Assembly: GCA_023473795.1 (NCBI GenBank)
Contig: JAMCYS010000086.1
Location: forward strand, 62,001 to 126,000
Length of the DNA: 64,000 nt
Direction: 5' to 3'
Origin: Chloroflexota bacterium
Lineage (GTDB): Bacteria; Chloroflexota; UBA6077; FW602-bin22; JAMCYS01
This document shows, in pieces, positions 6,582-51,683 of this stretch (positions within the stretch are counted from its first letter, which is position 1; the number at the start of each line of letters is the position of its first letter). Under the pieces are notes generated by a model. The model did no database searches. It was not told where the DNA came from and saw only the letters and a list, made by a program, of their open reading frames with translations. The translations under genes and the position numbers were made by a program.

Positions 6582-6595
6582 ACACGACATCGTGT
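6582..6595. promoter_or_regulatory. Palindrome in leader of the first importer operon (possible operator)
   Basis: ACACGA-CA-TCGTGT is a perfect 6+6 palindrome about 15-25 bases downstream of the likely transcription start. A looser outer pair, GAGAC/GTCTC, surrounds it. The position suits a roadblock-type repressor site. No cognate regulator can be named. Confidence 0.4.
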
Positions 6596-6616
6596 CTGTC
6601 GGTCTCTTGCTACCGG

Positions 6617-6645
6617 ATTGTACATCGCTAGAGGCCGCTTGTCAA
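6617..6645 (-). promoter_or_regulatory. Sigma-70 promoter of the first sugar importer operon
   Basis: On the minus strand TTGACA (6645-6640), a 17-base spacer and TACAAT (6622-6617) give a near-consensus promoter. The start would be near 6610, about 90 bases before the MalF GTG. Confidence 0.7.
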
Positions 6646-6662
6646 CGCCTACCAGGCCTGAG

Positions 6663-6818
6663 ATCCGTGCATAACTGGCAGGTATGGCGGTAGGGGCGGG
6701 GCTCCGTACCCGCCCGCCCGTCTAATCCCCACGCCGAGCTGGCAACTACGCCGCTACGGCGGCCGCGGCCGCTGGCGGGCGGGCAGAGACGCCCGCCCCT
6801 ACGGGATTATGCACGGAT
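6663..6818. repeat. 156-bp MITE-like palindromic element
   Basis: Outer arms ATCCGTGCATAA (6663-6674) and TTATGCACGGAT (6807-6818) are perfect inverted repeats. Inside them lie a second pair, GTAGGGGCGGG (6690-6700) and CCCGCCCCTAC (6792-6802), and a very GC-rich core. No coding sequence is evident. The nested inverted-repeat plan matches non-autonomous mobile or REP-type repeats. It fills much of the 487-base non-coding stretch 6522-7008, between two divergent promoters. Confidence 0.6.
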
Positions 6819-6890
6819 GTCAGCTACCAGGCCAGTCGCGGCAACAACGCTGGCGGTGACGTGGCGCAGCCCGAACACGGCTTGTCTACC

Positions 6891-6919
6891 TTGACGGGCA
6901 GCACCCACGATGCTATCCT
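6891..6919 (+). promoter_or_regulatory. Sigma-70 promoter of the Gfo/Idh/MocA gene
   Basis: TTGACG (6891-6896), a 17-base spacer and TATCCT (6914-6919) lie about 90 bases upstream of the ATG at 7009. Confidence 0.55.
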
Positions 6920-7008
6920 GGCCATAGTGGGCAACCGCTTTCTGCCGAACTAGCGACCCCGAACCTGTTCCCACCACAGGTCGCATCTTAGTCGGGAGAG
7001 GAGATCCA

Positions 7009-8202
7009 ATGCCAGGAGCCAGCTTCCACGCTACTCGCCCGCTCTCAGGCGTGCCCACGATCCCCGTCGGCGTCATCGGCTACGGCTGGATCGGCCGCGC
7101 TCACTCCGTGGCGATGAATCGGCTGCGGGACGCCACCTGGCCGCCCAACGTGCTACCGCGGTTGGTGGCCATCTGTGGCCGCAATGAAGAGAAAGTCGGC
7201 GCCGCGGCCCAGCGCTGGGGGTACGAGGGCTACTACACCGACTGGCACGATCTCGTGACCGATCCAGACATCCAGGCGGTGATCGTCGGCGCTCAAGCCT
7301 ATTTGCACCGCGAGCCATCCCTGGCCGCCCTGGCGGCAGGCAAGCACGTGCTTTGCGAGAAACCGCTGGCGCCGGACCTCCCGGAAGCGCGGCAGATGCG
7401 CGACGCCGCTCGGCAGAGCAGGACGCTGGCGATGACCGGTTTCAGCTACCGCTTCGTGCCGGCGCTCAAATTGATGCGCGATATCGTGCACAGTGGCGCC
7501 TTGGGGCCCATTAGCCTTTTCCGCGGCCACTATCTGAACGAGTCACGCCGCGACCCCCTGCTGCCCGCCTTTGGCGACGCGCCCGAAGTGAGGGGGCGCG
7601 GGCCACTCAACGACGTGGGCTCCCACCTCATCGACATCGCCCGCTTCCTGCTCGGCGACATAGCGGCCGTTTCCGGCAAGGTGCTTACCCACCTGACGCC
7701 CCGGCCGTCCCCAACCAGACCGGGTGAAATGGTAGACGTACCGCAGGAGGACACGTTCCACGGCGTGGTGGACTTCGCTGGCGGGACGACGGGCATCATT
7801 GAAGGCAGCGCGGTCGCCACGGGCCGCAAGAACTGGTTTTCGGTTGAGGTGAACGGCGTGCAAGGCACCGTGCGCTTCAACCTTGAGCGGCTCAACGAGC
7901 TAGAGGTCTACTTGCTGGACGGGGCCCAGCCGGAGGCCATGGGTTTCCGGGACATCCTCGTCACGGAGAGCAGCCATCCCTACCTCAGATACTGGTGGCC
8001 AAAGGGGCACGTAGTTGGCTGGGAAGCGACCCTGGTCAACGAGGTCCATCACTTCTTGAGCTGCATCCAGGGTGGGCGGGCGTTGGCTCCCGAAGGAGCG
8101 ACTTTCGAGGATGGCTACCAGGCAGCGCTGGTGGCGGAGGCGCTGCGCCGGTCCTCCCGAGACGGATGCAGGGTAGAGGTCAGCAGCCTGGAGCGCGGAT
8201 AG
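7009..8202 (+). CDS. Gfo/Idh/MocA family oxidoreductase
   Basis: A 397-residue NAD(P)-dependent sugar or inositol dehydrogenase-like enzyme. The N-terminal Rossmann motif VGVIGYGWIGRAH begins near residue 20. The family EKP motif (HVLCEKPLAPD, near residue 117) supplies the conserved Lys, and GSHLIDIARFLLGD carries the His/Asp active-site pair typical of the family. GGAGAGGAG precedes the ATG. The gene stands alone on the plus strand between two sugar-importer operons of the opposite strand, flanked by two MITE-like repeats. It probably oxidises or epimerises the imported cyclitol or sugar; which position it attacks is unknown. Confidence 0.92.
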   Translation: MPGASFHATRPLSGVPTIPVGVIGYGWIGRAHSVAMNRLRDATWPPNVLPRLVAICGRNEEKVGAAAQRWGYEGYYTDWHDLVTDPDIQAVIVGAQAYLHREPSLAALAAGKHVLCEKPLAPDLPEARQMRDAARQSRTLAMTGFSYRFVPALKLMRDIVHSGALGPISLFRGHYLNESRRDPLLPAFGDAPEVRGRGPLNDVGSHLIDIARFLLGDIAAVSGKVLTHLTPRPSPTRPGEMVDVPQEDTFHGVVDFAGGTTGIIEGSAVATGRKNWFSVEVNGVQGTVRFNLERLNELEVYLLDGAQPEAMGFRDILVTESSHPYLRYWWPKGHVVGWEATLVNEVHHFLSCIQGGRALAPEGATFEDGYQAALVAEALRRSSRDGCRVEVSSLERG

Positions 8203-8238
8203 TCGACGCGGGTGCGGCTCGCGACCGCAACCGCCTTG

Positions 8239-8388
8239 GAGGCTGTGCAAGAAGTGGGCTCTGGCATGAATGCCAGTAGTAGGGACGGCGGCTGAAGCCG
8301 CGCTCGGCCATTCATGGCCCGTCCCTAACCCCGTCTTTCAAAGCGGGGAGCGCAACTGATGTCAGCGTCGGGATCCTCGCACAGCCTC
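8239..8388. repeat. 150-bp MITE-like palindromic element
   Basis: Outer arms GAGGCTGTGC (8239-8248) and GCACAGCCTC (8379-8388) are perfect inverted repeats. Nested within them is TAGGGACG/CGTCCCTA (8280-8287 and 8320-8327), with two short hairpins between (GGCT/AGCC and GGCCAT/ATGGCC). The size and architecture match the element at 6663-6818, though the arms differ. It lies in the gap between the convergent Gfo/Idh and sugar-isomerase genes. Confidence 0.55.
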
Positions 8389-8411
8389 TCAGAGCAGCCC
8401 CGGCCGCCAGT

Positions 8412-30419: not shown

Positions 30420-31922
30420 CTAGATGCCAAGCGAGATCTTGTGCCGGGGCCGCCGCGACCGCTCTTCCTTCGCCAGGGACGCACGCCGTCGCATCGCCTT
30501 CTCAGCAGGGACCTCGCTGCTCTTGGCCACTGTCGGCCAGAGGGAACCACCTATCGGCACCCCGTCGATGACCTCCGGCCGGCCGAGGCCGCGTCGAGCC
30601 ATCTCGGCGCCGCCGGCAACGCTGAGCGTGATCTCCACCCCCGCGTCCTCCGGGAGCGCGGCGCGCACGGCGTCGGCAATCATCTGGTACACGAGCGGAC
30701 TGACGGCCGGCCTTTCTACCTCGCCGTCCCCCAGGCGGATGTGGGTGTGGCCGACTCCGGAGCCCGCCTGCAGATGAATACCTTGCTTGGGGGCAGATCG
30801 GGCCTCCGCCCGCACCTGGTGAGCGATGTTGCCGGGGCTGGCCGCCGGGTCGCTCGCCGCGGTGGCCACCGCCACCCGGTGCTCCTCGAAGTCGGTTTCC
30901 CCTATGCCAGATACGGGCACGCGGACTACCGCCCCAACCGGCGAGCGCAGCTCTACGTCGGGCATCGTGCGACCGTTGAACAGCAACTCTACCGACGCCA
31001 GACTCGCCGCCGCCGCCGCGGCACCTACCGACACCGGGATGTTCTTGGCCACCCCGGCCACGTGACCGTCGGGACGCCTATGAATGCTCTCACCCGTTAT
31101 CCCGGCATCTTCTAGGTCGGTCGGTTCGTCAAGCGTGAAGGGCAGACCGTCCAGCGAGTAGCCTAGCTCCTGGCCCATGAGCTTCAGTGCCTGCGCCGCG
31201 CGTGGCAGCCGTAGCTCGCTTTCGCGGATGAGGCGCGACTGGGCGAACACTTCGTCGGGCGTGCCGCTGGCGACAATGTGCCCGTGACGCAACACATACA
31301 CCAGGTCGGCGTATCTGGGCACGAAGTCTATGTCGTGGGTCGCCATCACAACGGTCACTCCCTGACCCACCTTCAGGCGGTAGAGCAGGTCCATCATGCG
31401 GCTGGCGCCCATCGGGTCGAGTCCGGCCGTCGGCTCGTCGAGGATGATTATCGACGGCTGCAGAGCCAGCACGCCTGCCAGAGACACCCGTCGCTTCTGA
31501 CCGAAGCTGAGGGCGTGGATTGGCCGGCGCTCCAGGCCCGGCAAGCCCACCAGTTCGAGGCACTTCTTGACCCGCGACTCGATCTCTGTGGGTGGCACCC
31601 CCATGTTGCGGGGCCCAAAAGCCACATCCTCGCCCACGGTGGCCGCGAAAAGTTGATCGTTGGGATCCTGGAAGACAAACCCCAGGGAACGGTATAGCCA
31701 GGTCAAGTCGCCTTTGCCCACCTCACGACCGCTCACCAGCACTCTCCCCGAGGCGGGGTGCAGGCTGCCGCTGAAGTGGCGAAACAGCGTCGTCTTGCCC
31801 GATCCGTTCGGCCCGAGGAGGAGTACGAACTGGCCATCGCCGGCCACGAAGTTGACGTTTTCCAGCGCCTTCACGCCGGTGGGGTAGACGTAGGTTAGGT
31901 CGATCGTCTCCAGCTTGCCCAT
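30420..31922 (-). CDS. cbiO: Cobalt/nickel ECF transporter ATPase (CbiO) fused to a degenerate CbiD domain
   Basis: 500 residues. Residues 1-235 are a complete ECF-type ATPase: Walker A GPNGSGKTT (37-45), Q-loop FQDPNDQLF (84-92), signature LSFGQ (138-142), Walker B IIILDEP (158-164) and switch His196. It should energise the CbiM/N/Q importer encoded upstream. From about residue 292 the sequence follows CbiD, the cobalt-precorrin-5B C1-methyltransferase, in order: an Ala-rich helix, VATAASDPAASPGN, GIHLQAGSGVGHT, AVSPLVYQMI, GVEITLSVAGGAEMAR, IDGVPIGGS. The catalytic-type signatures of CbiD (TTGTCAAAA, KDAGDDPDVTHG, NPVPRRMI) are altered, so methyltransferase activity is doubtful. A regulatory, corrinoid-sensing or structural role is possible. 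No other cobalamin-synthesis genes are nearby. Confidence 0.88.
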   Translation of the reverse strand: MGKLETIDLTYVYPTGVKALENVNFVAGDGQFVLLLGPNGSGKTTLFRHFSGSLHPASGRVLVSGREVGKGDLTWLYRSLGFVFQDPNDQLFAATVGEDVAFGPRNMGVPPTEIESRVKKCLELVGLPGLERRPIHALSFGQKRRVSLAGVLALQPSIIILDEPTAGLDPMGASRMMDLLYRLKVGQGVTVVMATHDIDFVPRYADLVYVLRHGHIVASGTPDEVFAQSRLIRESELRLPRAAQALKLMGQELGYSLDGLPFTLDEPTDLEDAGITGESIHRRPDGHVAGVAKNIPVSVGAAAAAASLASVELLFNGRTMPDVELRSPVGAVVRVPVSGIGETDFEEHRVAVATAASDPAASPGNIAHQVRAEARSAPKQGIHLQAGSGVGHTHIRLGDGEVERPAVSPLVYQMIADAVRAALPEDAGVEITLSVAGGAEMARRGLGRPEVIDGVPIGGSLWPTVAKSSEVPAEKAMRRRASLAKEERSRRPRHKISLGI

Positions 31923-35571: not shown

Positions 35572-38064
35572 ATGGGCGGAAGCGAACTGATCCAACATCA
35601 AGCGGTGGCCAGTGAACGTCCTAGGCCCACGTCCCGCCGGCGATTCAATCTGGCCCAGGCCGCGTGGTTGGGCGCGCTGGCGCTTGGCGCCTATCTGCGC
35701 TTCGCCTACATCGAGCTGAGCGAGTTTGGCGTCGACCAGGAGACCGCCCTGCACTACGCCCGCACCGTGCGCCGGGGTTGGGAGTTTCCTCTCGTCGGCA
35801 TGGCCTCCAGCGTGGGCCCGGTGTTCGGCCCCGGCGAATACTACCTGATGGCCCTGCCCCAATTCATCAGCGATAGCCCCGAGCTCTCCATAGTCTACGT
35901 TGGCCTACTGGGGCTCTTCGCCGGGGCTCTGTTCTCGTACCTGGTCTGGCGCCACCTGGGGCGGTTCGAGGGCGTGGTGACCATGGCACTGTTTGCCACG
36001 GGGCCCTGGGCGGTGTATCTCACCCGCAAGATCTGGACGCCGGACACGCTGCCGCTGTTCAGCGCCTTGGCTTTCGCCTGTCTGATCGCCGGCCTGGTGC
36101 GGAAGCGCTGGTGGGGCGTCCCCCTGGCTGCCTTCTGCATCGGCTACGCGGTGCAGGTGCACCACTCCGCCGTTGGCCTGCTGCCCGGTTTCCTATTGGT
36201 GGTGCTGCTGTTCATTCGTCGCCAGCGCCTGTGGCAGACCGCGCTCTCACTTCTCACATTAGCTCTACCGTCGTCTCTCTACGCTTGGCACGCCTGGCAG
36301 GATGGCCCGACCGAACTGATAAGGCTGCTGAACCTCTACGGTAAACCGCCTGACTACGACTTGCGATCTGTCGACCTCGCCCTCAGCCTGCTCTCGGGCG
36401 CCCACTACGTGGACGGTCTCGACGTCTCTTTCCCGCCAGGCGTGGTCGTACCGCAGCTGCCTGGTGTGGTGCTGTTGCTGGGCTTGGCCAGCTGCCTAGG
36501 CCTGGTGGTCGTCGCCTACGACCTCTGGCGAACGCGGTCGCGTGGCCAACTTACCGCCGCCAACGTGGTGCGCGTTATCGCTCTGGTCTGGGTCTTAGTG
36601 CCGCTGGCACTGACCGTTCGGCACTCCTTCGAGCTCTACCTGCGCTACGAGCTGTTCCTCTTGCCGATCGCCTTTCTCTTCCCCGCCGCCGGCCTTACCG
36701 CCCTGGCGCGAATCGCGGCCTGGCTCGGTCGACGATTCTCGTCCCAATCAGTGTCGCCTCAATCCCGATGGGCACTGGCCCTATCGGCAGCCGTGATTCT
36801 CTACGTCGCACTGAGCGGCGCGGTACGCGTCGAGGCAGTCTACCGATCCTACGCCCTGGCCACATTCCCGGTGCTCGGCGGCCCGTACGAATCGACTTCC
36901 CTGCCACTCCTCGGAGAAACGCGCCAGGCGTTCGACCATTTGCAGACCATCGCGGCCCCAGACCGCGACGCGGTCGTGGTCGGCCAGCAGTTTATCACCC
37001 AGCGCGGACCCGTCGAATATCTGAATGACAACCGCTACCGCCTGCGCTTGAGCGATACCGACGAGAGCTTCTTGCTCCCCAACGGCAAGTCCAGACTGCT
37101 ATTCCTGTCCGGCAGCCAATCCGTGGGCAAGCTGGTGGAGATGTTCGGCGGTAAGCAACGCACCGACCTTGAGTTCGGGTGGCCACCGCGCGACGAGAGA
37201 GTGAACGTCTACGATTTGGAGGCACGCAGTCTACCGACAGGCTTCACGACGGTCAAGCCTGGCCAGATCCTGGCCAACGGCCTTGAACTGCTGGCCTATG
37301 GCGCCAATACCACAGATGAGCGCAACGCCGATCTAGTGTCGGTCTGGCGGGTATCTGACGCCGACTTGGCGCTGCGGCCCTACTACTTCTACAACGCGTT
37401 TGTTCACGTTTTCGAGTACCGGGGTCAGCAGGTGGATGTCGGCGGGGAAGCGGAGCTGCCGATGACCGCTCAGTGGCGGACCGGCGACTATGTAGTCGTA
37501 CCGTTCCATCTAACCACGCGAGACCCCCTTGCCCGGGCGCTGTATCGGATCGAAGCCGGCGTCTACGTGCGCAACCCGCCCCGCGCTCCCCTGCCGACTC
37601 TGGCGGGCTCGCTACCCGTGGCCTCGCTGGGCCTCGTTCGCCTTGGCCCCAGCATCCAACCGCTTGCCAACGCGGGCCAGACGGCGGAGTTCGGCAATAG
37701 CCTGCGGCTGGCAGCTAGCTCCGTGTCGCGTGCAGGCAACCTAGTGGAAGCGAGTCTGGTCTGGCAGGCGAAAGCGGCGGTGTCCCAAGACTACACCGTC
37801 TTCGTGCACGTTTACGACCAAGCCGGCCAGCTGGCGGCACAGAGCGACGGCTGGCCGGCAAACGGCAATTACCCCACGTCCGGCTGGCAACCGGGGGAAT
37901 ACGTGGCCGATAAACGGACTGTCAACCTGCCTCCCAATCTCCCGCCTGGGACCTACACGGTCAAGGTTGGTCTCTACGACGCCAAGACGATGGAGCGTTT
38001 GGCGCCGGCACCCGATCACGGCGACCGTGCCGTGGTGATTGGCACCTTCCAGAGCGCCAGATAG
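35572..38064 (+). CDS. GT39-like membrane glycosyltransferase-family protein, copy A
   Basis: 830 residues. About twelve membrane helices (residues 25-430) resemble the PMT/ArnT (GT39, GT-C fold) family, which moves sugars from lipid-phosphate donors. The first extracytoplasmic loop has FGVDQETALHYARTV, the place of the catalytic acidic residue. After the membrane part come two beta-rich modules of about 120 residues. The last has a clear signature: DYTVFVHVYDxxGQLAAQ, GNYPTSGWQPGEYV and LPPGTYTVKVGLYDAKTMERL. ATG 35572 has GAGAAGG ahead. It is the first of four tandem paralogues; the acceptor could be envelope glycans or proteins. The function of the beta modules is not known. Confidence 0.75.
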   Translation: MGGSELIQHQAVASERPRPTSRRRFNLAQAAWLGALALGAYLRFAYIELSEFGVDQETALHYARTVRRGWEFPLVGMASSVGPVFGPGEYYLMALPQFISDSPELSIVYVGLLGLFAGALFSYLVWRHLGRFEGVVTMALFATGPWAVYLTRKIWTPDTLPLFSALAFACLIAGLVRKRWWGVPLAAFCIGYAVQVHHSAVGLLPGFLLVVLLFIRRQRLWQTALSLLTLALPSSLYAWHAWQDGPTELIRLLNLYGKPPDYDLRSVDLALSLLSGAHYVDGLDVSFPPGVVVPQLPGVVLLLGLASCLGLVVVAYDLWRTRSRGQLTAANVVRVIALVWVLVPLALTVRHSFELYLRYELFLLPIAFLFPAAGLTALARIAAWLGRRFSSQSVSPQSRWALALSAAVILYVALSGAVRVEAVYRSYALATFPVLGGPYESTSLPLLGETRQAFDHLQTIAAPDRDAVVVGQQFITQRGPVEYLNDNRYRLRLSDTDESFLLPNGKSRLLFLSGSQSVGKLVEMFGGKQRTDLEFGWPPRDERVNVYDLEARSLPTGFTTVKPGQILANGLELLAYGANTTDERNADLVSVWRVSDADLALRPYYFYNAFVHVFEYRGQQVDVGGEAELPMTAQWRTGDYVVVPFHLTTRDPLARALYRIEAGVYVRNPPRAPLPTLAGSLPVASLGLVRLGPSIQPLANAGQTAEFGNSLRLAASSVSRAGNLVEASLVWQAKAAVSQDYTVFVHVYDQAGQLAAQSDGWPANGNYPTSGWQPGEYVADKRTVNLPPNLPPGTYTVKVGLYDAKTMERLAPAPDHGDRAVVIGTFQSAR

Positions 38065-38117
38065 GCTGATCGACAAGTCTAGGCGTCTTCCGCCTGGTCT
38101 ACGGCTGTCGCCACCAT

Positions 38118-38146
38118 TTGCACACCACCGCTCGTTTGGGTATACT
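38118..38146 (+). promoter_or_regulatory. Sigma-70 promoter of the DUF2892-like gene
   Basis: TTGCAC (38118-38123), a 17-base spacer and TATACT (38141-38146), about 40 bases before the GTG at 38188. Confidence 0.5.
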
Positions 38147-38187
38147 AAAAGCCAGCGTAACCAACAGCTAATTTGCGAGGTGGCAAA

Positions 38188-38403
38188 GTGGCAAGCACAA
38201 TTAGATTCCTGAACAGCTGGGTCGGTCGAGCCGCGCGCGTGGTCCTTGGCCTGGCACTGATCTACTGGGGCTGGTTCCTCAACGGTTCCTCTACCCTCGG
38301 CATTGTGGTGGCAGTGGTCGGTCTGGTGCCGATTGCCATGGCTCTCTGGGGGCGCTGCCTTCTGCAGTTCCTGCCCGGCGGCCGCAAAGCAGGGGAGGCA
38401 TAG
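38188..38403 (+). CDS. Small DUF2892-like (YgaP membrane-domain) protein
   Basis: 71 residues with an amphipathic N-terminus (IRFLNSWVGRAARVVLGLALI) and two membrane helices, ending WGRCLLQFLPGG. This matches the small DUF2892 inner-membrane family, related to the C-terminal domain of rhodanese YgaP. GTG 38188 is preceded by GAGGT at a good distance; an earlier in-frame TTG (38173) lacks one. It has its own promoter and terminator and simply sits between GT39-like copies A and B. The single Cys in GRCLL is typical of the family. Function unknown. Confidence 0.75.
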   Translation: MASTIRFLNSWVGRAARVVLGLALIYWGWFLNGSSTLGIVVAVVGLVPIAMALWGRCLLQFLPGGRKAGEA

Positions 38404-38451
38404 CCAGCAACCCCTGCCGGTAATAGCGTTCTCCCCCGGAAAGCCACAACC

Positions 38452-38480
38452 CGAGCCCTCTCCGCAAACGAGAGGGCTCG
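38452..38480 (+). terminator. Terminator after the DUF2892-like gene
   Basis: The 11-bp stem CGAGCCCTCTC / GAGAGGGCTCG (38452-38462 with 38470-38480) has a 7-base loop, followed by TCCCGTTCT. The poor T-run makes it moderate. Confidence 0.6.
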
Positions 38481-38561
38481 TCCCGTTCTGGCGCCCTTCC
38501 TTGCCGAAGTGCTCATTCACTCCAACCATCCCTTCCCGCAACCGCCGGGCAAGAGGTTCGT

Positions 38562-38590
38562 TTGACAGGCTAGGACAGCTAGGTTAGACT
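38562..38590 (+). promoter_or_regulatory. Sigma-70 promoter of GT39-like copy B
   Basis: TTGACA (38562-38567), a 17-base spacer and TAGACT (38585-38590). The start is near 38597, which supports the TTG start at 38624. Confidence 0.65.
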
Positions 38591-38623
38591 AGCCAGCCGA
38601 GTCCGCCCCGGGGAGGTTGTCGC

Positions 38624-41068
38624 TTGCAGCTGAAGGCAGTCAGCCCTGCGACGACGTCAGCCCACACTCATGGCTTGGCGGCGACGACCTGGCTGGTTCT
38701 TCTGGCGCTGGGTGGATATCTTCGCTGGTCCTACCCACAGCTGACGCTCTTTGGCCTCGACCAACAGACAGTTGTCCACATGGGGCAGGCCATAAGGCTG
38801 GGCTGGGAGCGCCCTCTGGTTGGCGTCACCTCGGCCCTGGGCGCCGTACAGGGCGCCGTCGAATACTACTTAATGACCGTGCCCCAGTTCTTCAGCGACG
38901 CCCCTGAATTCTCGGCCGCCTACGTCGGTCTCCTCGGGCTGCTGGCTGGGGCCATCTTCTCGGCAGCCGTCTGGCGGGTCTTCGGCAAGGGTCTGGCGCT
39001 AGGCGCCTGGGCCCTCTTTGTCACGGGACCCTGGGCGGTGCACTACACCCGCACGATCTGGACTCCGGACACGGCTCCGCTCTTCACGGCGCTGGCCTAT
39101 GCTCTCCTCGTCGCCTCGCTTGCCTATCGCGTGCGCTGGGCCCTGCCGCTCGCCGCCCTGGCCCTGGGCATCGTCGTTCAGATTCACCAGGCTGGCGCAA
39201 TGCTCCTACCCGGCGCCGCTCTCTGTCTGCTTCTCTGCATACGGAGAGTGCGCCCGCTCGAACTGATCGTGGGATTGCTCCTCTTCGCCGCCACCTTCGC
39301 CCCCTGGTTGCTGGGCAACCTGCAGAGGGAGTCGGGCGATCTGCAGCGGCTGCTGAGCGCAGGCAACGCCGAGGCGCAGGTTGACCTACTGGCACCGACG
39401 CTTCTACAGAACTTGGCAGCGGGGGCCGGCTACCCGCTGGCGGGTGGCGCGTTGATCCCCGGCGGGCAGGCCCCACTTGCGTGGCCAGGGTTGACGGAAT
39501 TGTTGGTAGGCGCCTTCTGGCTTGGCGTCGTTCTAGCCGTCTGGCGGGTGGCCAGGGACTGCTGGCGGCGAAGGCTGGAGCCGAGCACCGTGGCCCTGGC
39601 CCTTGCCCTGGGACTGGCAGTGCTACCGGCGGCCATCGACTTGAGGCATTCCGTTTCCTTGTACTTCCGTTACTTCGTCTGCACCTTCCCCGTGCTCTTC
39701 CTCTTCCCGGCGCTGGCTTTCGCCGCCATACCAGGTTGGCTTGCCCGGCTGAGCCCGAGCCGAGGGCGGGTTGCCGGCGAGTGGGCGATGACAGCGCTCC
39801 TGGCGCTGGCGGCGGTGGGAGGCGCCTGGCGGGTAGAGGCTGTGAACCAGGCATTCTTGACCGCCGGGGCGGTCCCAGCGGCGGGACAGAGCGACATGTT
39901 CCCCCTGCCATTCATTAAGGACTCCCGCGTGGCCATGCAGAGGCTCGAGCAGATCGTCTCCGCGGACTACGACACGATAGTCACCGGCTCGGTAGCCCGG
40001 GGGCCGCTTGAGTATCTCGCCGCCAACCGCTACCGCCTGCGCTATATCGACCAGCCGACGATGCTCGTGCTGCCGGTTGAGCGCTCCCGCATGGTGTTTC
40101 TGCCCGATTCCTACTGGGCGGCTGATCTGGCGCTCGCGCTCGGCGGGGTGGAGAACAAGAACGTGGCCCTGCTCTGGCCGCCTTCCGAATTGAAGACTCG
40201 GCTGGTCGACGTCGACCCCGCCCGCGTCGCCATCTCCGATCGCTTCACCAAAGTAGCGCCGGGACAGGTGCTGCCCAACGGGCTGGAACTGCTGGCCTAT
40301 GCCGTGGAGAACAGCACCGCTCGTGGCTGTGACTTGCTGACCGTCTGGCGAGTCGCCAACGCGGAGTGGGCCCACCGCTTCTGGCTCTACAACTCCTTCA
40401 CCCACGCCGCCACGTTGACCGGCCAGCAGGTCGACATCTGGGGCGAGGTCGAGCTGTCCACGTCTTCCAACTGGAAGCAGGGCGACCTTCTGGTCGTACC
40501 CACCAAGGTCGTGGCCCAAAAGGACCTGGCGAGGGGCGGCTACAAGCTCCAGATGGGCGTTTATGTGCGCTTCCCGGCCCGGCAGACGATACCCGTAGAT
40601 CCCGGCGCCACGGAAGTCGTCAGCATCGAACCGGCTCGGCTAGGTCAGCCGACGGTTGCCGAAACGACCAAACCCGTGGCGACCTTCGAGCAGGGCATTT
40701 CCTTGCAGAAGGGCGCCGCCAAGCTGAGCCAGGACGGCAAAAGGGTTGACATCAACTTCGGCTGGCGGAGTGAAGACGGATTGCAGCGCGACTATACCGT
40801 CTTCGCCCACGTCTACGACGCGCAAGGCAAGTTGGTTGCCCAGGCCGACAGCTTCCCGGTAGCCGGCAACTACCCGACGTCCTTGTGGCCGGCCGGCGAG
40901 TACGTGAGCGATGACCGAACGGTCGAACTACAGTCTGCCTTGGCGCCCGGCGACTACACCATCAAGGTTGGGCTTTACGACGCCAAGACCATGCAGCGCC
41001 TTAAACCGGCGCCCGCAACGAGTGACCTGGCGGTGGCGGTCGCCACAATACGGGTGCCAGCAAAATGA
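38624..41068 (+). CDS. GT39-like membrane glycosyltransferase-family protein, copy B
   Basis: 814 residues, the same plan as copy A: roughly twelve membrane helices, then two beta modules. The last module reads DYTVFAHVYDAQGKLVAQ, GNYPTSLWPAGEYV and PGDYTIKVGLYDAKTMQRL, nearly identical in pattern to A. The first-loop motif is FGLDQQTVVHMGQAI, with Gln where A has Glu. I accept TTG 38624 as start: GGGAGG lies seven bases before it and the promoter ends just upstream. Copies A and B are the closest pair of the array. Likely envelope glycosylation; the donor and acceptor are unknown. Confidence 0.75.
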   Translation: MQLKAVSPATTSAHTHGLAATTWLVLLALGGYLRWSYPQLTLFGLDQQTVVHMGQAIRLGWERPLVGVTSALGAVQGAVEYYLMTVPQFFSDAPEFSAAYVGLLGLLAGAIFSAAVWRVFGKGLALGAWALFVTGPWAVHYTRTIWTPDTAPLFTALAYALLVASLAYRVRWALPLAALALGIVVQIHQAGAMLLPGAALCLLLCIRRVRPLELIVGLLLFAATFAPWLLGNLQRESGDLQRLLSAGNAEAQVDLLAPTLLQNLAAGAGYPLAGGALIPGGQAPLAWPGLTELLVGAFWLGVVLAVWRVARDCWRRRLEPSTVALALALGLAVLPAAIDLRHSVSLYFRYFVCTFPVLFLFPALAFAAIPGWLARLSPSRGRVAGEWAMTALLALAAVGGAWRVEAVNQAFLTAGAVPAAGQSDMFPLPFIKDSRVAMQRLEQIVSADYDTIVTGSVARGPLEYLAANRYRLRYIDQPTMLVLPVERSRMVFLPDSYWAADLALALGGVENKNVALLWPPSELKTRLVDVDPARVAISDRFTKVAPGQVLPNGLELLAYAVENSTARGCDLLTVWRVANAEWAHRFWLYNSFTHAATLTGQQVDIWGEVELSTSSNWKQGDLLVVPTKVVAQKDLARGGYKLQMGVYVRFPARQTIPVDPGATEVVSIEPARLGQPTVAETTKPVATFEQGISLQKGAAKLSQDGKRVDINFGWRSEDGLQRDYTVFAHVYDAQGKLVAQADSFPVAGNYPTSLWPAGEYVSDDRTVELQSALAPGDYTIKVGLYDAKTMQRLKPAPATSDLAVAVATIRVPAK

Positions 41069-41140
41069 TTTGGCAGCCCCCAGGCCTGGCTTCGTTGCCA
41101 ACGATCGTCAGGAAGACTTACCAGCGGGCGAGGACAGACA

Positions 41141-43681
41141 ATGCAGGCTAGCTTCACGGCTGATCGACCTACCGCTCGCCCTTCGCTCGGCGCACGCTGG
41201 CGGACCGCCATTACTTACTCCGCGCTGTTGGCGATCCTTGCGCTCGCTCTTTGGCTGCGCTGGGATCGGCTGGACTATATGGAATTCACCCAAGACCAAG
41301 CCTGGCCAATATCGCGTGCCTACGAATGGGTTGCCAACGGCAATTTCCCCCTCCACGGCTACGTCACATCGGTTGGCGGCATGAACGGGCCGATCGAGGC
41401 CTGGCTTCTCGCGTTGCCCATAGCGCTGTCCCACGACCCCCGCATGGCTACAGCTTTCGTGGGTCTTCTGCAGGTGCTGGCCATTGCTGGCACCTTCTTC
41501 CTAGGGCGACGCTATTTCGGCACGACCGCCGGTCTGGTAGCTGCCCTCGCTTTCGCCGTCAACCCCTGGGCACTCGAGTATTCCCGCAAGATCTGGACGC
41601 CTGATATTCTGCCGCTTCTCTCGGTCCTCTTCTTCACGGCCGTCTTCGCCGCCGTCGTGCGGAACAAGCAATGGCACTACTCTCTGGCCATCCTCTGGTT
41701 CGTGGTGCTCTTCTTAGGCCATCCTTCAACGGTCGTGTATGCCCCGATTCTTCTCCTCGCGATGATAGTGGGTTGGCGTAGGTTCGGGCCCAGGCCGCTC
41801 CTGCTTGGCACAGCCCTAGGGCTGCTCACTGCCGCGCCATATCTCTACTCCGATTCGCTGTGGGGCTTCGGCAGCCTGCAAGCCTACTTGAAAGTCGGGC
41901 CGAATTCGTCGTCGTTTGATCTCGAATCATTGAAATACATTCTGACAATGGCCACGGCCCGTTACTTCCCCATCATGATGGGCTTCGGACTGCGGGGCGA
42001 TTGGGTGCTGCCCGACTTAGCTATACAGAACGACATCACTCTGTGGCTGATGCTGACCGGGCTCGGAATCTGCGTTTGCCAGGTAGCGATCCACCTCTGG
42101 CATAAGCGAAAGTTCGATGATGCCGCCAAGAAGTACGGCTTGATCTTGCTTTGGTTCGTGGTGCCACTGGGAGTCTCCCTGCGCCATGCGAACGAGTTCT
42201 ACCCGCACTACTTCATCGCGATCTACCCGCTGCAGTTCATTCTGATTGGTATCACCCTGGCAGTGCCGGGGCAGATTCTGAATCGGGTTGGTCGGCCCAC
42301 GTGGCAGTATCTGCAATGGGCCGGCGCTGGCCTGCTGGGGTTACTGGTAATGTATCTGTCGTTCTCCAACGTGATCTTCTTCCGGACCTATCTCGACTAC
42401 ATTGTCAGTAACGGGCCCCAGGGGCCATATGGCACACCGTTGCTGTACAGCCGGCGGGCCATGGATACCGCTGTCGACTTGAGCCAGCGCTTTGGCGGAG
42501 AAAGAGTGTACGTCTACTCTTACCTCCAGCGTCAGGCCCTGGAATACCTAGCTTGGGACCGGCTGGACCTGAGGTTCGTCGAGCCGCCTGATGCCATGCT
42601 CGTGCCCAACTCCCCCGCTGCCGGCGCGTTGTTCATCCTAGCCTCGGACGAGCTCGGGGGAAGAGATTACCACCTGCTAGACAGCAACAGCCCTATGGTC
42701 TCGCGCCTATTGACAATGGGTTGCCGGGAGGTAGAGGGTGCCGCCGTCCGGGGCCCTGACGGCCACGACTACTACCGGTTCTTTCAGATGCCAGCGGGCG
42801 GCGCCGCGGCCGTGCTGGACAAATTCACTCACCTGAAGGATGGGCCGTCTCTCGCCAACGGCCTGCGCTTGGACGCGTACTCTCTCTCCCCTGCGGCACC
42901 GCCAGGGGAGAGCGCCACTGTCGCTCTAGCCTGGAGTCAATTGGAGACAGTCAAGAGCGACGAGACGCAGTACGTGAACCTGTTCTCCCATCTGGTCGAT
43001 TCGCAGGGGACGGAGATTGCCAGCAGCGACACCGAACTCTTCGAGTACTCGCGCCTACAACCTGACGAGGTTCTGCTCTCCTTCCATCAGGTTGGAGTGC
43101 CGCCCACGGCTGGGCCCGCGCTCGCCTGGTTTGACGTCGGCGCCTACAATCGACTGAATCGCAAGGAGCTTTCTTGGCTGGATGGCCAAGGCAAACCGCG
43201 CAAGGAGCCGGTCAAGATCGGCCCGATCAAGATCGCGCCGCCGCGCCTGGCCTCCCAGCCGGCCAATACGGCCGGCTTCAAGTTTGGCGACAGCCTGCGG
43301 TTGCTGGGCTTCGATGTTCTTCCCCAGCAGGCGACCGCCGGGCAGGAGATGGCGGTGACCCTGCGCTGGCGCGCCCTCGCCCGACTGGCGACAGATTACG
43401 CGGTCTCGGTGCAGATGCTCGACTCCTCCGGCAAGCTGCTAGCCCAGCATGACTCTCCACCCGTGGGCGGCAACTACCCCACGTCGTACTGGACCGAGAA
43501 CGAGGAAATCGTCGACTCGCACCCGATCGTGGTGCCGCCAACCGCGGCCCCAGGCCCCTACCGCATGATCATCGTGGTCTATGCCTCGGACAGCAAGCAA
43601 CGGCTGACTGCCGTTGGCGACGACGGCGCTGCCGCCGATCACGCAACCTTGGGTGAGATTACCGTGGTCAAGGTGCCGTGA
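41141..43681 (+). CDS. GT39-like membrane glycosyltransferase-family protein, copy C
   Basis: 846 residues: membrane part (about 25-420) and two beta modules. The first-loop motif is MEFTQDQAWPISRAYEW. The helices include NPWALEYSRKIWTPDILPLLS, which also appears in A and B in the form TRKIWTPDT or TRTIWTPDT and is a family hallmark. The final module is more divergent (DYAVSVQMLDSSGKLLAQ, GNYPTSYWTENEEIV). GCGAGGA precedes the ATG. The stop overlaps the start of copy D by 4 bases (GTGA), so C and D are translationally coupled. It resembles the broken copy at 49996-51461 in its middle region. Confidence 0.75.
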   Translation: MQASFTADRPTARPSLGARWRTAITYSALLAILALALWLRWDRLDYMEFTQDQAWPISRAYEWVANGNFPLHGYVTSVGGMNGPIEAWLLALPIALSHDPRMATAFVGLLQVLAIAGTFFLGRRYFGTTAGLVAALAFAVNPWALEYSRKIWTPDILPLLSVLFFTAVFAAVVRNKQWHYSLAILWFVVLFLGHPSTVVYAPILLLAMIVGWRRFGPRPLLLGTALGLLTAAPYLYSDSLWGFGSLQAYLKVGPNSSSFDLESLKYILTMATARYFPIMMGFGLRGDWVLPDLAIQNDITLWLMLTGLGICVCQVAIHLWHKRKFDDAAKKYGLILLWFVVPLGVSLRHANEFYPHYFIAIYPLQFILIGITLAVPGQILNRVGRPTWQYLQWAGAGLLGLLVMYLSFSNVIFFRTYLDYIVSNGPQGPYGTPLLYSRRAMDTAVDLSQRFGGERVYVYSYLQRQALEYLAWDRLDLRFVEPPDAMLVPNSPAAGALFILASDELGGRDYHLLDSNSPMVSRLLTMGCREVEGAAVRGPDGHDYYRFFQMPAGGAAAVLDKFTHLKDGPSLANGLRLDAYSLSPAAPPGESATVALAWSQLETVKSDETQYVNLFSHLVDSQGTEIASSDTELFEYSRLQPDEVLLSFHQVGVPPTAGPALAWFDVGAYNRLNRKELSWLDGQGKPRKEPVKIGPIKIAPPRLASQPANTAGFKFGDSLRLLGFDVLPQQATAGQEMAVTLRWRALARLATDYAVSVQMLDSSGKLLAQHDSPPVGGNYPTSYWTENEEIVDSHPIVVPPTAAPGPYRMIIVVYASDSKQRLTAVGDDGAAADHATLGEITVVKVP

Positions 43682-46608
43682 ACCTCAGTCTAACCAGCGC
43701 CAGGCCAATAACGCGCGGCGCCTGGCTCGCCGTAGGGGCAGAGGCAGCGGCCGTTGTTGCCATAGTCGCCGTGGCCTGGGCCCTGCGAGTTTACCGACTC
43801 GACCTCGCCCCTCCCGGACTACACCAGGACGAGGCCATCTACGGCATCCTCGGTCTTTATGTAATGCATGGCAACCACGCGCTCTTCTTCGGCGAGCGCG
43901 AGGCCCTCTTCATGTACTTCATCGCCGCCGCCGTGCGCCTGATGGGCCCGGACGTGATCACTCTGCGTCTGGTGGCGGCGGTCGTCGGCACCGCCACCGT
44001 GCTGCTGCTCTGGGTTGTGGCCCGCCTGATGTACGGACGCAGGGTAGCTTTGCTGGCCGCTGCTGGCCTGGCCGCCTCATATTGGCACGTGACGCTCAGT
44101 CGGGACATCTTCCGCGCCGGCACTCTGCCTCTGTTGGAGTGCCTGGCCTTCGGCTTGCTCTGGGTCTCACTGCGCTCGCGGTCGCGGTGGTTGCGTTTAC
44201 CTGCCTACGCGCTGGCCGGTGGGGCCCTCGGGCTCACCCTTTACACCTACATTGCCGCTCGCGTCGTGCCCGCGGTTGTCCTTCTCTTCTTCGTCGGGCA
44301 GATCCTCTGGGAGAGGCGCGGCTTGCGTCCGGCTTGGCTGACCCTTCCCCTGTACCTTGCTGCCGCCGCGTTGGTCTACGCGCCCCTGGGTTCGCTCTAC
44401 CTGGCCAACCCGGAGAGCTTCCTCGGACGCATGAGTGAGGTTTCCCTGGCGGTAGATCAGGCTAGCGCCACTCCTGTCGGCTACCTGGAGAACCTGCTGC
44501 GTGTGGCAGGGATGTTCTTCGTGGCCGGCGACCAGAACTGGCGGCACAATTTCGACGGGAGGCCGGTCTTCGGCCCCTTCTTCGCCCTGGCCTTCCTCAT
44601 CGGCTTGGCAGTCTGCCTCCGGGGCTGGCGCCGGGGCGAGAACCGGTTCCTGATGCTGTGGGCGGCCCTGATGCTGGCACCGACGGCCGCGGCGACGGAC
44701 GCGCCGCACTACCTGCGAGCAATCGGCGCGGTGCCGGCGCTGTACTTGCTGGCCGCCATCGGCTGGGTGGCCGCTTGGGACTGGGTGCGCCCTCGCTTGG
44801 CAACCAGCGCCCGACCCTGGCGCGCTCTGGCAGGGCGAGCTGCTTTCCCGGCCCTCGTCTCGCTGCTGCTCCTGGTGCCAGCCGGCGTCACGGGCTGGAC
44901 GTACTTCAATCTGTGGTTGCCCCGGCAGGAGACCTACGATGCCTACAACGGGCAGTTGGCAGCGGCGGGAAGGTTCATGGCGGCTTCGCCGGAATGGCGC
45001 GCCAGCGCCCAGAAGAAGCTGGATTTCTTCGTCAGCAGGCGCTTCTGGCAGGACAACCCATCGGTTCTCTGGTACGTTTGGCAGATTCTCTCGGGACAGG
45101 AACGAAACCTTGCCGATAGCCGGCTCGGCTCACCCTGGTTTGACGAGACGCGAGCTCTGCCCTTGCAGCCGGGTGGTGGCCACTACTTGCTTGCCGACGG
45201 CTCCTCCTGGGCAGCCACCGCGTTGGCTCGTTTGTGGCCAGGGCAGGTCACCAGGGAGAATGGGGACGCCGGCCCGGACGGCCGGCCTGCGGTCGTCGCC
45301 TTGCGCGCCCCGGCTTTGCCGCCGCCGGTCGCCGCCGCCCAGCCGCTGGCGTCATTTGGCGGCTGCTTCGAGTTGGTCTCTTACACTCTCTCGCCCAGCG
45401 TGACCTCGGGCGGCGAGGCGGAGCTGGTGACCACCTGGCGGTTGGGCACCCCTCCCGGCTCGTGGCGGCAGCGTGACAGCACGATGACGGTATTCGCGCA
45501 CGTTCTCGATGCGGACGGTTCCTTGCTGACGGGGGACAATGGTCTCGGCTACTTCCCAATCGACTGGCAACCGGGCCAGACACTGCTGCTGCGCCACGTC
45601 CTGCGCCTGCCCGCCGGCACGGCTCCCGGCAAGTACTCGTTGGTGCTGGGTCTGGTGGGACCGGATGGCAAACGGGTCGAGGAAAGCATCGGCCACGGCC
45701 CGGACAACACGCTACGCCTCGAAGCGGCCATCTCGGTGACGGCAGCGACCGAACCGGCGTCCATGCCAAGAGTGAGCCAGCCGGTCGATTGGCCTGCCGC
45801 CGGACAGTTCTCCCTGCGCGGTGTGGACCTCGGCGGCGAAGGGGTGCTGGCGGGCGAATCGCTGCGAGCCCTCCTCTATTGGCAGGCCACCGGCGACGTT
45901 GCCGACGAGTACGATTTGCCGCTGCTTCTGTTGGACGGCAGCGGCAAAGAAGTGGCACGCGACGACGGCCGACCGGCCTTCGGCCGCTATTCCACGTCTC
46001 TGTGGCAAGCCGGGCAACTGGTGCGCGATCCTCGCCAGCTCGCCGTGGGGGCGCGCGTGCGCGCCGGCACCTACACGCTCACCGTCGCAGCCGTGAACCG
46101 CCGTACGGCCGCCAGCACCGCGCCGTTCGCCCTCGGCACCGTGACGGTCAGCGAGCCCGCGCGCACGTTCGCGGCGCCGGCGATAGCGAACCTTCTTGAA
46201 AGGCCAGCCAGCTTCGGCGGCGAGGCCGAGCTGCTTGGTTACGACTCGGACATCGCCACGGCTAAAGCCGGAGGCCAGGCGCACTTCACGCTGTACTGGC
46301 GCGCTCAGGGCGAGTCCGACAAGCGCTACAAGGTCTTCGTGCACGTTCTCTCGCCGGCAGGCAAGGTGGCGGCGCAGTCGGACGCTGAGCCGGCGAACGG
46401 CTCCCGGCCGACGTCCACCTGGGTGCGGGGAGAGATCGTGGCCGACGGCCACACGATTCCTCTGCCCGACAGCCTGTCCAGCGGCGAGTATGCTGTAGAA
46501 ATCGGACTATACGACCCCGCCGACGGCAGCCGCTTGCCGCTACTAGACGCGGCCGGAAAGCAGGTCGATACTCGACTCCTACTGCCGGCCGTTTCCTTCG
46601 GCCGCTAA
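43678..46608 (+). CDS. GT39-like membrane glycosyltransferase-family protein, copy D (three beta modules)
   Basis: 976 residues, the longest of the array. The membrane part has the canonical PPGLHQDEAIYGI first loop with the acidic DE pair expected of active PMT/ArnT-type enzymes. Three beta modules follow instead of two: about residues 560-665, 690-820 and 840-970. The last has RYKVFVHVLSPAGKVAAQ, GSRPTSTWVRGEIV and GEYAVEIGLYDPADGSRL. It starts at GTG 43678 inside the last codons of copy C. The intact acidic pair makes D the best candidate for an active transferase in this set. Substrates unknown. Confidence 0.76.
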   Translation: MNLSLTSARPITRGAWLAVGAEAAAVVAIVAVAWALRVYRLDLAPPGLHQDEAIYGILGLYVMHGNHALFFGEREALFMYFIAAAVRLMGPDVITLRLVAAVVGTATVLLLWVVARLMYGRRVALLAAAGLAASYWHVTLSRDIFRAGTLPLLECLAFGLLWVSLRSRSRWLRLPAYALAGGALGLTLYTYIAARVVPAVVLLFFVGQILWERRGLRPAWLTLPLYLAAAALVYAPLGSLYLANPESFLGRMSEVSLAVDQASATPVGYLENLLRVAGMFFVAGDQNWRHNFDGRPVFGPFFALAFLIGLAVCLRGWRRGENRFLMLWAALMLAPTAAATDAPHYLRAIGAVPALYLLAAIGWVAAWDWVRPRLATSARPWRALAGRAAFPALVSLLLLVPAGVTGWTYFNLWLPRQETYDAYNGQLAAAGRFMAASPEWRASAQKKLDFFVSRRFWQDNPSVLWYVWQILSGQERNLADSRLGSPWFDETRALPLQPGGGHYLLADGSSWAATALARLWPGQVTRENGDAGPDGRPAVVALRAPALPPPVAAAQPLASFGGCFELVSYTLSPSVTSGGEAELVTTWRLGTPPGSWRQRDSTMTVFAHVLDADGSLLTGDNGLGYFPIDWQPGQTLLLRHVLRLPAGTAPGKYSLVLGLVGPDGKRVEESIGHGPDNTLRLEAAISVTAATEPASMPRVSQPVDWPAAGQFSLRGVDLGGEGVLAGESLRALLYWQATGDVADEYDLPLLLLDGSGKEVARDDGRPAFGRYSTSLWQAGQLVRDPRQLAVGARVRAGTYTLTVAAVNRRTAASTAPFALGTVTVSEPARTFAAPAIANLLERPASFGGEAELLGYDSDIATAKAGGQAHFTLYWRAQGESDKRYKVFVHVLSPAGKVAAQSDAEPANGSRPTSTWVRGEIVADGHTIPLPDSLSSGEYAVEIGLYDPADGSRLPLLDAAGKQVDTRLLLPAVSFGR

Positions 46609-48842: not shown

Positions 48843-49999
48843 TGGGCCTGACCACGGAGACCAAGATCGATCTACTGGCCGAGGGCGCGGGCTTCGACGT
48901 CTGCCAGGCTGCCCCTGGGGCTTCGCCTCTCCGGCATGACGACCTATCGCGCTGGCTCTATCCTGCCGTCGTGTCCGGCGGCAGAGTGGTGAATCTCTTC
49001 AAAGTGCTGCTCAGCAACGTCTGCTTCAACGACTGCTCCTACTGTGCGAACCGCCGCGACTCCGCTTGCCGGCGGGCGAGCCTCGGGCCCGAGGAGCTTG
49101 TTCGCTCCTTCCTAGAACTCCACCGTCGCGGCCGGGCCCAGGGGCTTTTCCTCAGCTCGGCCCTAGCAGGCAGCGGACCGGCGACGATGGACCGGTTACT
49201 GGCCGCGGTGGAGCATCTGCGGCTGCGGGAGGGGTTTCGGGGCTACATCCACCTGAAGATAATGCCCGGAGCCGAGAGAGAGGCCGTCGCGCGAGCGGTG
49301 CAGTTGGCCGACCGCGTGTCAATCAATCTCGAGGCGCCCAACCCCAGCCGCCTCGCCGGTCTCAGCAACGACAAGAACTTTGCCGAACTGCTGCAGCGCC
49401 TGCGCTGGGCGCACGAGCTGCGCCGGGAGAGCGGCGGCGCCCCCTCCGGTCTCACCACTCAGTACGTGGTGGGAGCGGCGGGGGAGTCCGACGCCGAGCT
49501 CCTGGCCACGTCTGGCCGGCTCTACAGGGAGGTTGGGCTGGCGCGGGCCTACTACAGCGCCTTTCGCCCCCTGCCCGGCACGCCGCTGGAAGGACTGCCC
49601 GCCACCTCGCCGCGGCGCGAACTGCGGCTCTATCAGGCCGACTTTCTTCTGCGCAGCTACGGCTACCGGGCCGACGAAATGGTAGTCGATGGCGATGGCA
49701 ACCTGCCCCAGAACAGCGACCCCAAGGTCGCCTGGGCGCGGGCGCATCCTGAGCGCTTTCCTGTGGATATCCAGACCGCTGGGCGCAGCCAGCTGCTGCG
49801 CGTGCCGGGGATAGGCCCGCGGGGAGCCGAGGCAATTCTCGCCGCTCGCCGCCAGGCCAGGCTGCGCGACCCGCGCCAGTTGCGGGCCCTGGGCATCGCG
49901 GCCGGGCACGCCGCGCCGTACGTTCTGCTGGACGGGAAGCAGCCGGCGTCCGCCCGGATGCGTCAAGCCAGTCTCTGGACAGAAGACGAACTCCGCTAG
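48842..49999 (+). CDS. Putative DNA modification/repair radical SAM protein (UDG-linked family) with helix-hairpin-helix
   Basis: A 385-residue radical SAM enzyme. The cluster motif CFNDCSYC (Cys61, 65, 68) is followed by ANRRDSACRRASL, GLFLSSALAGSG, YIHLKIMPG, RVSINLEAPNPSRL, TTQYVVGAAGESDAELL, YYSAFRPLPGTPLEG and the HhH segment LLRVPGIGPRGAEAIL near residue 320. This order defines the UDG-linked radical SAM family (rSAM_link_UDG), usually encoded beside a small partner and a uracil-DNA glycosylase. Neither partner is in this window. The HhH implies nucleic-acid binding. The reaction is unknown. The stop overlaps the end of the convergent GT39 pseudogene by 4 bases. Confidence 0.88.
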   Translation: MGLTTETKIDLLAEGAGFDVCQAAPGASPLRHDDLSRWLYPAVVSGGRVVNLFKVLLSNVCFNDCSYCANRRDSACRRASLGPEELVRSFLELHRRGRAQGLFLSSALAGSGPATMDRLLAAVEHLRLREGFRGYIHLKIMPGAEREAVARAVQLADRVSINLEAPNPSRLAGLSNDKNFAELLQRLRWAHELRRESGGAPSGLTTQYVVGAAGESDAELLATSGRLYREVGLARAYYSAFRPLPGTPLEGLPATSPRRELRLYQADFLLRSYGYRADEMVVDGDGNLPQNSDPKVAWARAHPERFPVDIQTAGRSQLLRVPGIGPRGAEAILAARRQARLRDPRQLRALGIAAGHAAPYVLLDGKQPASARMRQASLWTEDELR

Positions 50000-51461
50000 G
50001 GCCCGATTTCCACCGTCGGCAACTCCACGAAATCTCCCACAGTCTCTCCGGCGCTGCTGGTGACTTGCAGCCGCCGCACGTCCTGGGGCGTACACATGCC
50101 GACGACAAGCCGATAGCGGCCTGGCCTGAGACCACGCAGGCTGAGGGAGCGGACGTCGGCTACTACCTCACCCGCCTGCCACAAGGAAGTGGGATACTTG
50201 CCGTCGCGAGGAGGACTATCCGTCTGTGCCACTAGCTTGCCGTCCGCCAAAATCTGCACGAATACGGTGTAGTCTCGGGTCGGCGGTCTGGCTGCCCACC
50301 AGTAGAGAGTGGTATCCAAGCACTAGTCTGTAAGCTACGCCTTTGCCAGGTCGTAGCCCAGCAGTTCGACCTCGCCACCCAAGGTAAGGCCGACGCTGCT
50401 GCCGGCTGAAAGCGGCGGGGCCAGATCCGGCGCCACCCCGGCAGCAAAAGGCCCGAGGCGCAGGTCGCCGGAGGCGGGCTGTCCGCGAGCGTCGAGCAGC
50501 TGCGCCGCATCCCGCCGCCAGCAATGGAACATGCCCAGCGACAGCCAGGCCTGCTGGCACTGCAAGTCGCTGGCCGCAGGTAGCTCGCTCCAACTGAGCA
50601 TCACATCGCCTTCGCGCAAGAACTCCATCCGCTCCAGGGTGATGTCGGCGATGGCCAGGTCCTGGCCGGCACTGTCCTGGAGATGCTGGGCAAGGCAGTA
50701 GTTGGGCTCGAACGAGCTACGGTCGGGCGTTCGCCAGACTTCCCAGGCCGCAATCAGGCGCAGGCGGTCTGGCGTGGGTGACCGGGCAGGATACTCCATC
50801 GGGCGAGCCGGAGCCCGTTGTCAAAGCGTGAATAGGGCCCCTCGTTCTGCAGTGTGGACAGTATGCGATCGCGGCCGCCGGCCGGCAAGCGAAAGAAACG
50901 AATCGTGGTCTGCCCTCCCGGCACGACCACGGCCTTGTCCGGCAGCTCCATAAGTCCCAGGTCGGCCAGGCGAGCAGCCTCTAGCGGTCCGCCGAAGGTA
51001 AGCATGTAGAACCGATCGCGGCCCGTTTCAGGGCCGAGTAAGAGCTGCTGGGGCTCGGTCGACTGCCTAACAGGCAGGCCATACGACTCGGCATAGTAGG
51101 CAACAGTCTCCCGCGCGCGCTCGGGGCTCCAGACGTAAAGGGGCTCGCCAGGAGACTCGGCCTGCAATCTGGCCGCCACGGAAAACGCCTGCCTGTAGTA
51201 GGAAGCGGGAATGCCATAGACCTGCTCCAGCCCGTTGCGCTGGATAAGCGCCAAAACGGTGTCATACTGCCAGGCTTGCCCGCCGGCCACCAGCACTACC
51301 GGCAGCGCGATGAGGGCCCAGGAAGTGCTCGCCCGAGCTGCCAGGTGCCCGCGTGCCCACAACCGAGACACGCGCTCGCCCAACCACACCAGCCCCAGGC
51401 CGGCAACTATGAACTGGGAAGGCTGGGTGGCGATCAGGTACCGATGGTAATCCCGTCGATG
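49996..51461 (-). pseudogene. Decayed fifth GT39-like gene
   Basis: Three fragments follow copy C-like sequence in order. 51461-50754: YHRYLIATQPSQF membrane end and the linker to FDNGLRLARW. 50799-50335: the first beta module, one frame away. 50319-49996: the last module, DYTVFVQILADGKLVAQ, GKYPTSLWQAGEVV, GRYRLVVGM. One frameshift lies near 50790. Two in-frame TAG codons (50337-50335 and 50325-50323) separate the last two pieces, which share a frame. The N-terminal ~350 residues with the catalytic membrane region are missing; homology stops near 51461, beside the promoter of the opposite-strand leader. This is a broken relative of the 35.6-46.6 kb array. Confidence 0.82.
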
Positions 51462-51464
51462 CTG

Positions 51465-51591
51465 TGATATAATACTGGTGCAGCAAGAGAATATTGGCTG
51501 GCTGGGGCCTGATGGCTCGGCTGCCGCCAAACTTGCCGGAACGACCCGGCGGAAGGGCTGCCCTCCGGGCAACGGGGGTCGAGCCCTTTTT
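51465..51591 (+). ncRNA. Candidate structured leader / attenuator RNA upstream of the cold-shock gene
   Basis: An extended -10 (TG-A-TATAAT, TATAAT 51468-51473) starts a GC-rich transcript near 51480. It ends in a terminator-like hairpin: AAGGGCT (51553-51559) with AGCCCTT (51582-51588) and a T5 run (51587-51591). A mutually exclusive stem pairs GGCTCG (51514-51519) with CGAGCC (51580-51585), and CGACCC (51542-51547) pairs with GGGTCG (51576-51581). That terminator/anti-terminator layout is typical of riboswitches or attenuators. It matches no RNA family I recognise (not SRP, 6S, TPP, SAM or cobalamin). The downstream ORF starts 93 bases later. Confidence 0.4.
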
Positions 51592-51683
51592 GTTGCACAA
51601 ATACTATGCTGCCGTGTGTTCGCTGAAAATGACTTATCGAACTAACAGGATTGTTGCGCGGTAGCCCTGGAGAAAGGGAAGGA

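Follow-up and report, generated by a model that had tools for sequence, protein, structure and literature searches.

Four unbroken ORFs (A-D) lying in tandem on the + strand (35572-46608) of the window, a stretch of 64,000 nucleotides from a Chloroflexota genome, probably encode extracytoplasmic GT-C_A glycosyltransferases in which a terminal β-sandwich module grips the acceptor and the internal modules serve mainly as spacers. Somewhat better than even confidence is placed in this reading. Gene A (35572..38064, +) specifies an 830-aa protein with a GT-C core, a soluble linker domain, and two C-terminal modules. Two modules are also found in the products of gene B (38624..41068, +; 814 aa, TTG start) and gene C (41141..43681, +; 846 aa). 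Gene D (43678..46608, +; 976 aa, GTG start), which shares its first 4 bases with the end of C, encodes an α/β domain and three modules. A first-pass annotation of this DNA had reported four large ORFs of 814-976 residues here, with two modules in A-C and three in D; the ORFs were found open, and the same count was returned by an iterated HMM built up from four seed modules across the source genome (E 3e-12 to 2e-34). In A, a divergent internal module (37303..37572, +; E 1.5e-12) precedes the terminal one (37669..38061, +; 131 aa). The corresponding pairs are located at 40289..40570 (+; E 3e-12) and 40727..40999 (+; E 1.4e-31) in B, and at 42869..43153 (+; E 1.8e-15) and 43301..43603 (+; E 5e-34) in C. 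The first, second, and terminal modules of D (45373..45675, 45814..46107, and 46231..46533, all +) were placed by both the module HMM and a structural model of D. Throughout A-D, the last modules score far better (E 2e-34 to 1e-31) than the first ones (3e-17 to 3e-12), and given these E-values the repetition of the module exceeds chance by far. Three motifs previously described for the module hold for the last modules of A and B and are looser in the last modules of D and C, whereas the internal modules are far more divergent.

No family in Pfam or NCBIfam covers the module, and no description of it was found in the literature searched. The terminal module of A, modelled alone using AlphaFold2 with 92 relatives, is all β (pLDDT 96.3). 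A Foldseek comparison of this model with the PDB, as the first-pass annotation had proposed, placed the carbohydrate-binding domain (CBD) of Aquifex Wzt in complex with 3-O-methyl-mannose at rank 1 (8dky; E 2.9e-5), and the top 25 included the further Wzt entries 8dl0, 7k2t, 8dne, and 2r5o. TM-scores against the Wzt CBD were moderate (0.43-0.65; 0.65 for 2r5o), and GH2 domains and NPC2/ML β-sandwiches scored almost equally well. Alignment of the module with a Wzt_C profile made from domains of the same class (hhalign) gave 87-89% (E about 3e-6), in register across 79-84 columns; the Ig-like CARDB family, handled identically, gave 0.9%. PF14524 was matched at E ≤ 0.01 by 12 of 93 modules (best 1.6e-6), and the module of A fell under its cut-off (17.8 vs 30.4 bits). 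No ABC ATPase fusion was found in the module proteins scanned, and module profiles run against PDB sequences returned no convincing relative. The residues named for the Aquifex Wzt sugar pocket include Leu300, Asn313, Ala348, and His350 (PMC9445017). Four of the six aligned pocket positions coincide with near-invariant module residues (Leu300-H47, Asn313-D60, Ala348-G101, and His350-Y103; P = 0.008, hypergeometric), each of them conserved in 90% or more of the 93 sequences. Because the pocket match comes from an alignment and the TM-scores are no more than moderate, the relation to the Wzt CBD is best described as distant homology and not family membership, with a site that is likely shared. 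The earlier guess that the module binds glycan thus gains support from both the best solved match and the profile match, and glycan binding is the predicted role.

Conservation differs between terminal and internal copies. In three sets with the same trend, D60, T70, D81, and Y103 are present in 82-100% of terminal modules vs 35-63% of internal ones. Terminal modules of the source genome retain D60 (93%), T70 (89%), D81 (82%), Y103 (89%), and R110 (96%); in its internal modules these five residues are found at 35-53%, and the core residues W32 and W73 stand at 100% and 88%. The set of loci fetched by pattern is biased at D41-H47 and W73-D81 and unbiased at D60, G101, and Y103. In the source-genome set, where that bias is absent, conservation of H47 (46%) and G101 (68%) falls short of that of D60 and Y103. 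Since terminal modules keep the polar motif and internal modules lose it, the terminal module is likely the functional binder, as judged from residue conservation.

The module search across Chloroflexota that had been suggested earlier found it in 55 of 151 genomes, C-terminal and mostly on GT-C hosts, with dozens of copies in many genomes. The source genome holds about 44 modules across about 30 proteins (HMM), together with 37 PMT_2 matches. Proteins carry one to four copies, and in 134 module ORFs the last module is followed by a short tail only, with a membrane helix after it in none. Among 55 proteins fetched by the module alone, PMT_2 was present in 39; the remaining hosts have DUF2079, TMEM260-like, PTPS_related, DUF2142, YfhO, GT87, or STT3 cores, and one is EpsI/DUF3485. 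PF02366 (PMT) was matched in 20 of 55 module proteins other than A-D. At least eight GT-C Pfam families therefore bear the module at their C terminus, and a fusion of EpsI to the module is also present in the source genome. Loci were retrieved by a pattern scan based on a four-sequence alignment. Of the 135 matches, 80 named loci were listed, and all but two of these bear Chloroflexota names (one Propionibacteriaceae and one just "bacterium"); the restriction to one phylum is based on these 80 of 135 matches and on seeds drawn wholly from Chloroflexota. The contig labelled Propionibacteriaceae (UBA8946; locus L143) carries module genes, and its assembly could be misnamed or contaminated. At locus L055 (G000:C29), an exosortase-partner EpsI domain (DUF3485) is joined to the module (7057-8409, -), and a peptidase S15 is joined to the same EpsI-module end (5032-7017, -), possibly through an assembly artefact or duplication. 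At locus L044 (-; 4231-5871 and 5856-6497), the gene for a 213-aa anchored module protein immediately precedes, and overlaps, a GT-C gene that has no module; judging from this pair, the module may also work as a separate subunit.

These data bear on a rival explanation in which the modules are structural or mediate protein-protein contacts, by bracing the core, making dimers, or recognizing a protein acceptor (pilin, archaellin, or S-layer protein). Ig-like sandwiches frequently play such roles, the polar motif is gone from internal modules, and RbmA FnIII and complement MG domains were among the weak matches. Protein acceptors are plausible, as Chloroflexota archaellins bear likely O-glycans for which the responsible enzymes are unidentified (PMC12488501). 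However, the profile relation is specific, holding for the Wzt CBD but not for CARDB, the polar motif overlaps the Wzt sugar pocket, and one module is found on many different GT-C families; this explanation is considered unlikely. The polar motif is identical across at least eight GT-C host families and EpsI, and this leads to a further, tentative proposal that we regard as possible but doubtful: the terminal module could be a phylum-level "address tag" by which all host enzymes read one shared Chloroflexota envelope glycan or lipid-linked glycan cap. Wzt, by analogy, reads the O-antigen cap.

The membrane cores of A, B, and C fall into a single subfamily (identity over >500 residues, 41% for A-B and 29% for A-C), in which B is the nearest paralogue of A. 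Two further tandem genes of this subfamily are located on another contig (C31) of the same genome, and C is nearest to these. D resembles A-C in short stretches only and has its nearest relatives in another Chloroflexota subfamily; the earlier description of four tandem paralogues therefore stands for A-C and not for the core of D. Full-length A used as a probe gave no match in the collection of named genomes. The AlphaFold2 model of full-length D (mean pLDDT 85.8) contains 11 long membrane helices, a short α/β domain, and three β modules. Among solved structures it comes closest to ArnT (apo and undecaprenyl-phosphate-bound), AglB, and STT3, with EmbC, EmbB, and Pmt4 further down, which bears out the PMT/ArnT-like membrane core proposed at first pass. 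The 11 long helices between the N terminus of D and its soluble part would place the modules and loop 1 on one side of the membrane. In GT-C enzymes, the catalytic residue sits in the loop following the first membrane helix, and alignment identifies a catalytic-type Asp there in all four proteins (Asp55 of A, within VDQE; Asp46 of B, within LDQQ; Asp52 of C; and Asp51 of D) and among their relatives. The next residue is Glu in D (Asp51-Glu52) and Gln in A-C. A second acidic motif, IWTPD, is kept in A-C, takes variant forms in their relatives, and is missing from D; the longer form IWTPDT, attributed earlier to A-C, is exact in A and B and reads IWTPDI in C. PMT_2 (PF13231; cut-off 26.1 bits) is matched above cut-off just in C (40.8 bits) and D (30.9 bits), with A below (20.3 bits) and no match in B, although A and B align to C along the whole core. 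PF02366 (PMT, GT39) had no match in A-D in the Pfam scan, so the GT39 label, which had been applied to all four, is not safe in the strict sense. Their assignment as predicted GT-C_A proteins of ArnT/PMT-like type is safe, by model for D and by alignment for A-C.

The surroundings of the array were also surveyed. Glycan genes, gtrAB, a donor synthase, and a flippase were sought in ten scanned neighbors and none was found; these neighbors include genes for cobalt transport, MFS, gamma-glutamyltranspeptidase, radical SAM, and aconitase functions, among others. The idea that the array sits in an operon for donor synthesis was rejected because the ten neighbors lack glycan genes, and conservation of the array as a unit was rejected because the three relatives examined have single genes. 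In relatives of the same order, the A-C type is represented by one gene, flanked by unrelated genes that vary from case to case. Adjacent module genes on the same strand occur at 26 of 79 loci, so arrays are ordinary for this module family. The array is a local expansion without a glycan pathway among those ten neighbors, and the claim that it implies a dedicated pathway was not supported; overall, the first-pass interpretation is partly supported. A cluster on contig C59 of the same genome contains several module GT-Cs together with a WbaP-type sugar transferase, two GT2 genes, and two GT4 genes, and through this company the module is linked, in that cluster at least, to the synthesis of surface polysaccharide. 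The genome as a whole has one GtrA-family match and 23 GT2 matches. The 112 genes surveyed around named loci have mixed functions, with few glycosyltransferases. Elsewhere in the window, one frame (30420-31922, -) encodes a CbiO-like ABC ATPase with a partial CbiD domain at its C-terminal side, an unusual fusion, and adjoins CbiQ- and CbiM-like genes.

Close to the array, on the opposite strand, lies a decayed fifth copy (about 49999..51641, -) with frameshifts and stops; its N-terminal part is missing, and a C-like core end and a still recognizable terminal module are left. This copy, the Asp-Gln pair of A-C, and the single-copy state of relatives elsewhere would fit an explanation in which a lineage-specific expansion lacking any single function has left A-D as mostly noncatalytic or decaying paralogues, but the frames of A-D are all intact, the loop-1 Asp and acidic IWTPD are kept in A-C and relatives, and other families of the order still contain full-length relatives. 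This explanation is quite improbable. Binding of the lipid moiety in either donor or acceptor, as by ML-domain proteins (NPC2, MD-2), is very improbable, for although NPC2 occupied fold-search ranks 4-9 and the module of A alone was just over the ML cut-off (23.9 vs 22.7 bits), that match spans 33 residues, ML was matched in 2 of 44 and 1 of 93 modules, and the PDB profile search returned no ML chain.

In the favored reading, acceptor-gripping glycosyltransferases with an ArnT/PMT/STT3 fold would take sugar from a predicted polyprenyl-phosphate donor and attach it, outside the membrane, to an acceptor. The Wzt-CBD-like modules would lie on the catalytic-loop side of the membrane. There the terminal module would use its conserved polar pocket to grip the acceptor, for which an envelope polysaccharide or the glycan of a glycoprotein is the likeliest candidate; the internal modules, which are degenerate, may be mainly spacers or weak secondary binders. 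Counted against this explanation are the moderate TM-scores and the close scores of other β-sandwiches, the score of the A module below the PF14524 cut-off, the failure to find a donor synthase or flippase in the ten neighbors scanned, the lack of an above-cut-off PF13231 match in A and B, Asp-Gln in A-C, the pattern bias behind part of the terminal-module conservation, and the lower conservation of H47 and G101 in the source genome. To our knowledge, the envelope chemistry of Chloroflexota is poorly known, and this nameless, sugar-reader-like module offers a handle for finding extracytoplasmic glycosyltransferases in the phylum. At about 130 aa and soluble, it is small enough for expression and ligand screening, and it merits its own Pfam entry. 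The module GT-Cs are also candidates for the enzymes that would O-glycosylate the archaellum of Chloroflexota, a modification considered likely (PMC12488501).

Several known systems share features with A-D. The CBM of EmbC binds the acceptor (PMC3044687), as do those of AftD and GT136 (PMC11127046). EmbA, EmbB, EmbC, AftD, and the GT136 enzyme ORF12 of Citrobacter youngae likewise combine a GT-C core with an extracytoplasmic carbohydrate-binding β-sandwich, and EmbC and EmbB are among the fold matches of D. A C-terminal CBM-like module after the membrane core, as in the EmbC/AftD/GT136 type, is found in A-D, where the 11 helices of the D model predict its membrane side and carbohydrate binding is predicted from pocket conservation. 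No common sequence family was found with these enzymes, and here one module family occurs in one to four copies on at least eight GT-C Pfam families. ArnT (GT83), PMT (GT39), and STT3/AglB (GT66) have the GT-C_A fold and the loop-1 Asp in common with A-D but are only about 10-15% identical and differ in their C-terminal domains. The Wzt CBD (PF14524; 8dky/2r5o) provides the best fold match, a significant profile match, and coinciding pocket positions; however, it is cytosolic, fused to an ABC ATPase, and a strand-swapped dimer, whereas the module is carried by membrane transferases, is often in tandem, falls below the family cut-off, and was modelled as a monomer. Gtr-type three-component periplasmic glycosylation also uses a GT-C enzyme and a lipid-linked donor (the donor being predicted for A-D), but gtrAB was not found beside the array. 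On the favored reading, A-D would be of a known kind, a GT-C enzyme with an acceptor-binding β-sandwich as in EmbC, AftD, and GT136. What is new is the module family itself: nameless, Wzt-CBD-like, multiplied inside proteins, spread across many GT-C families of one phylum, and conserved in its terminal copy.
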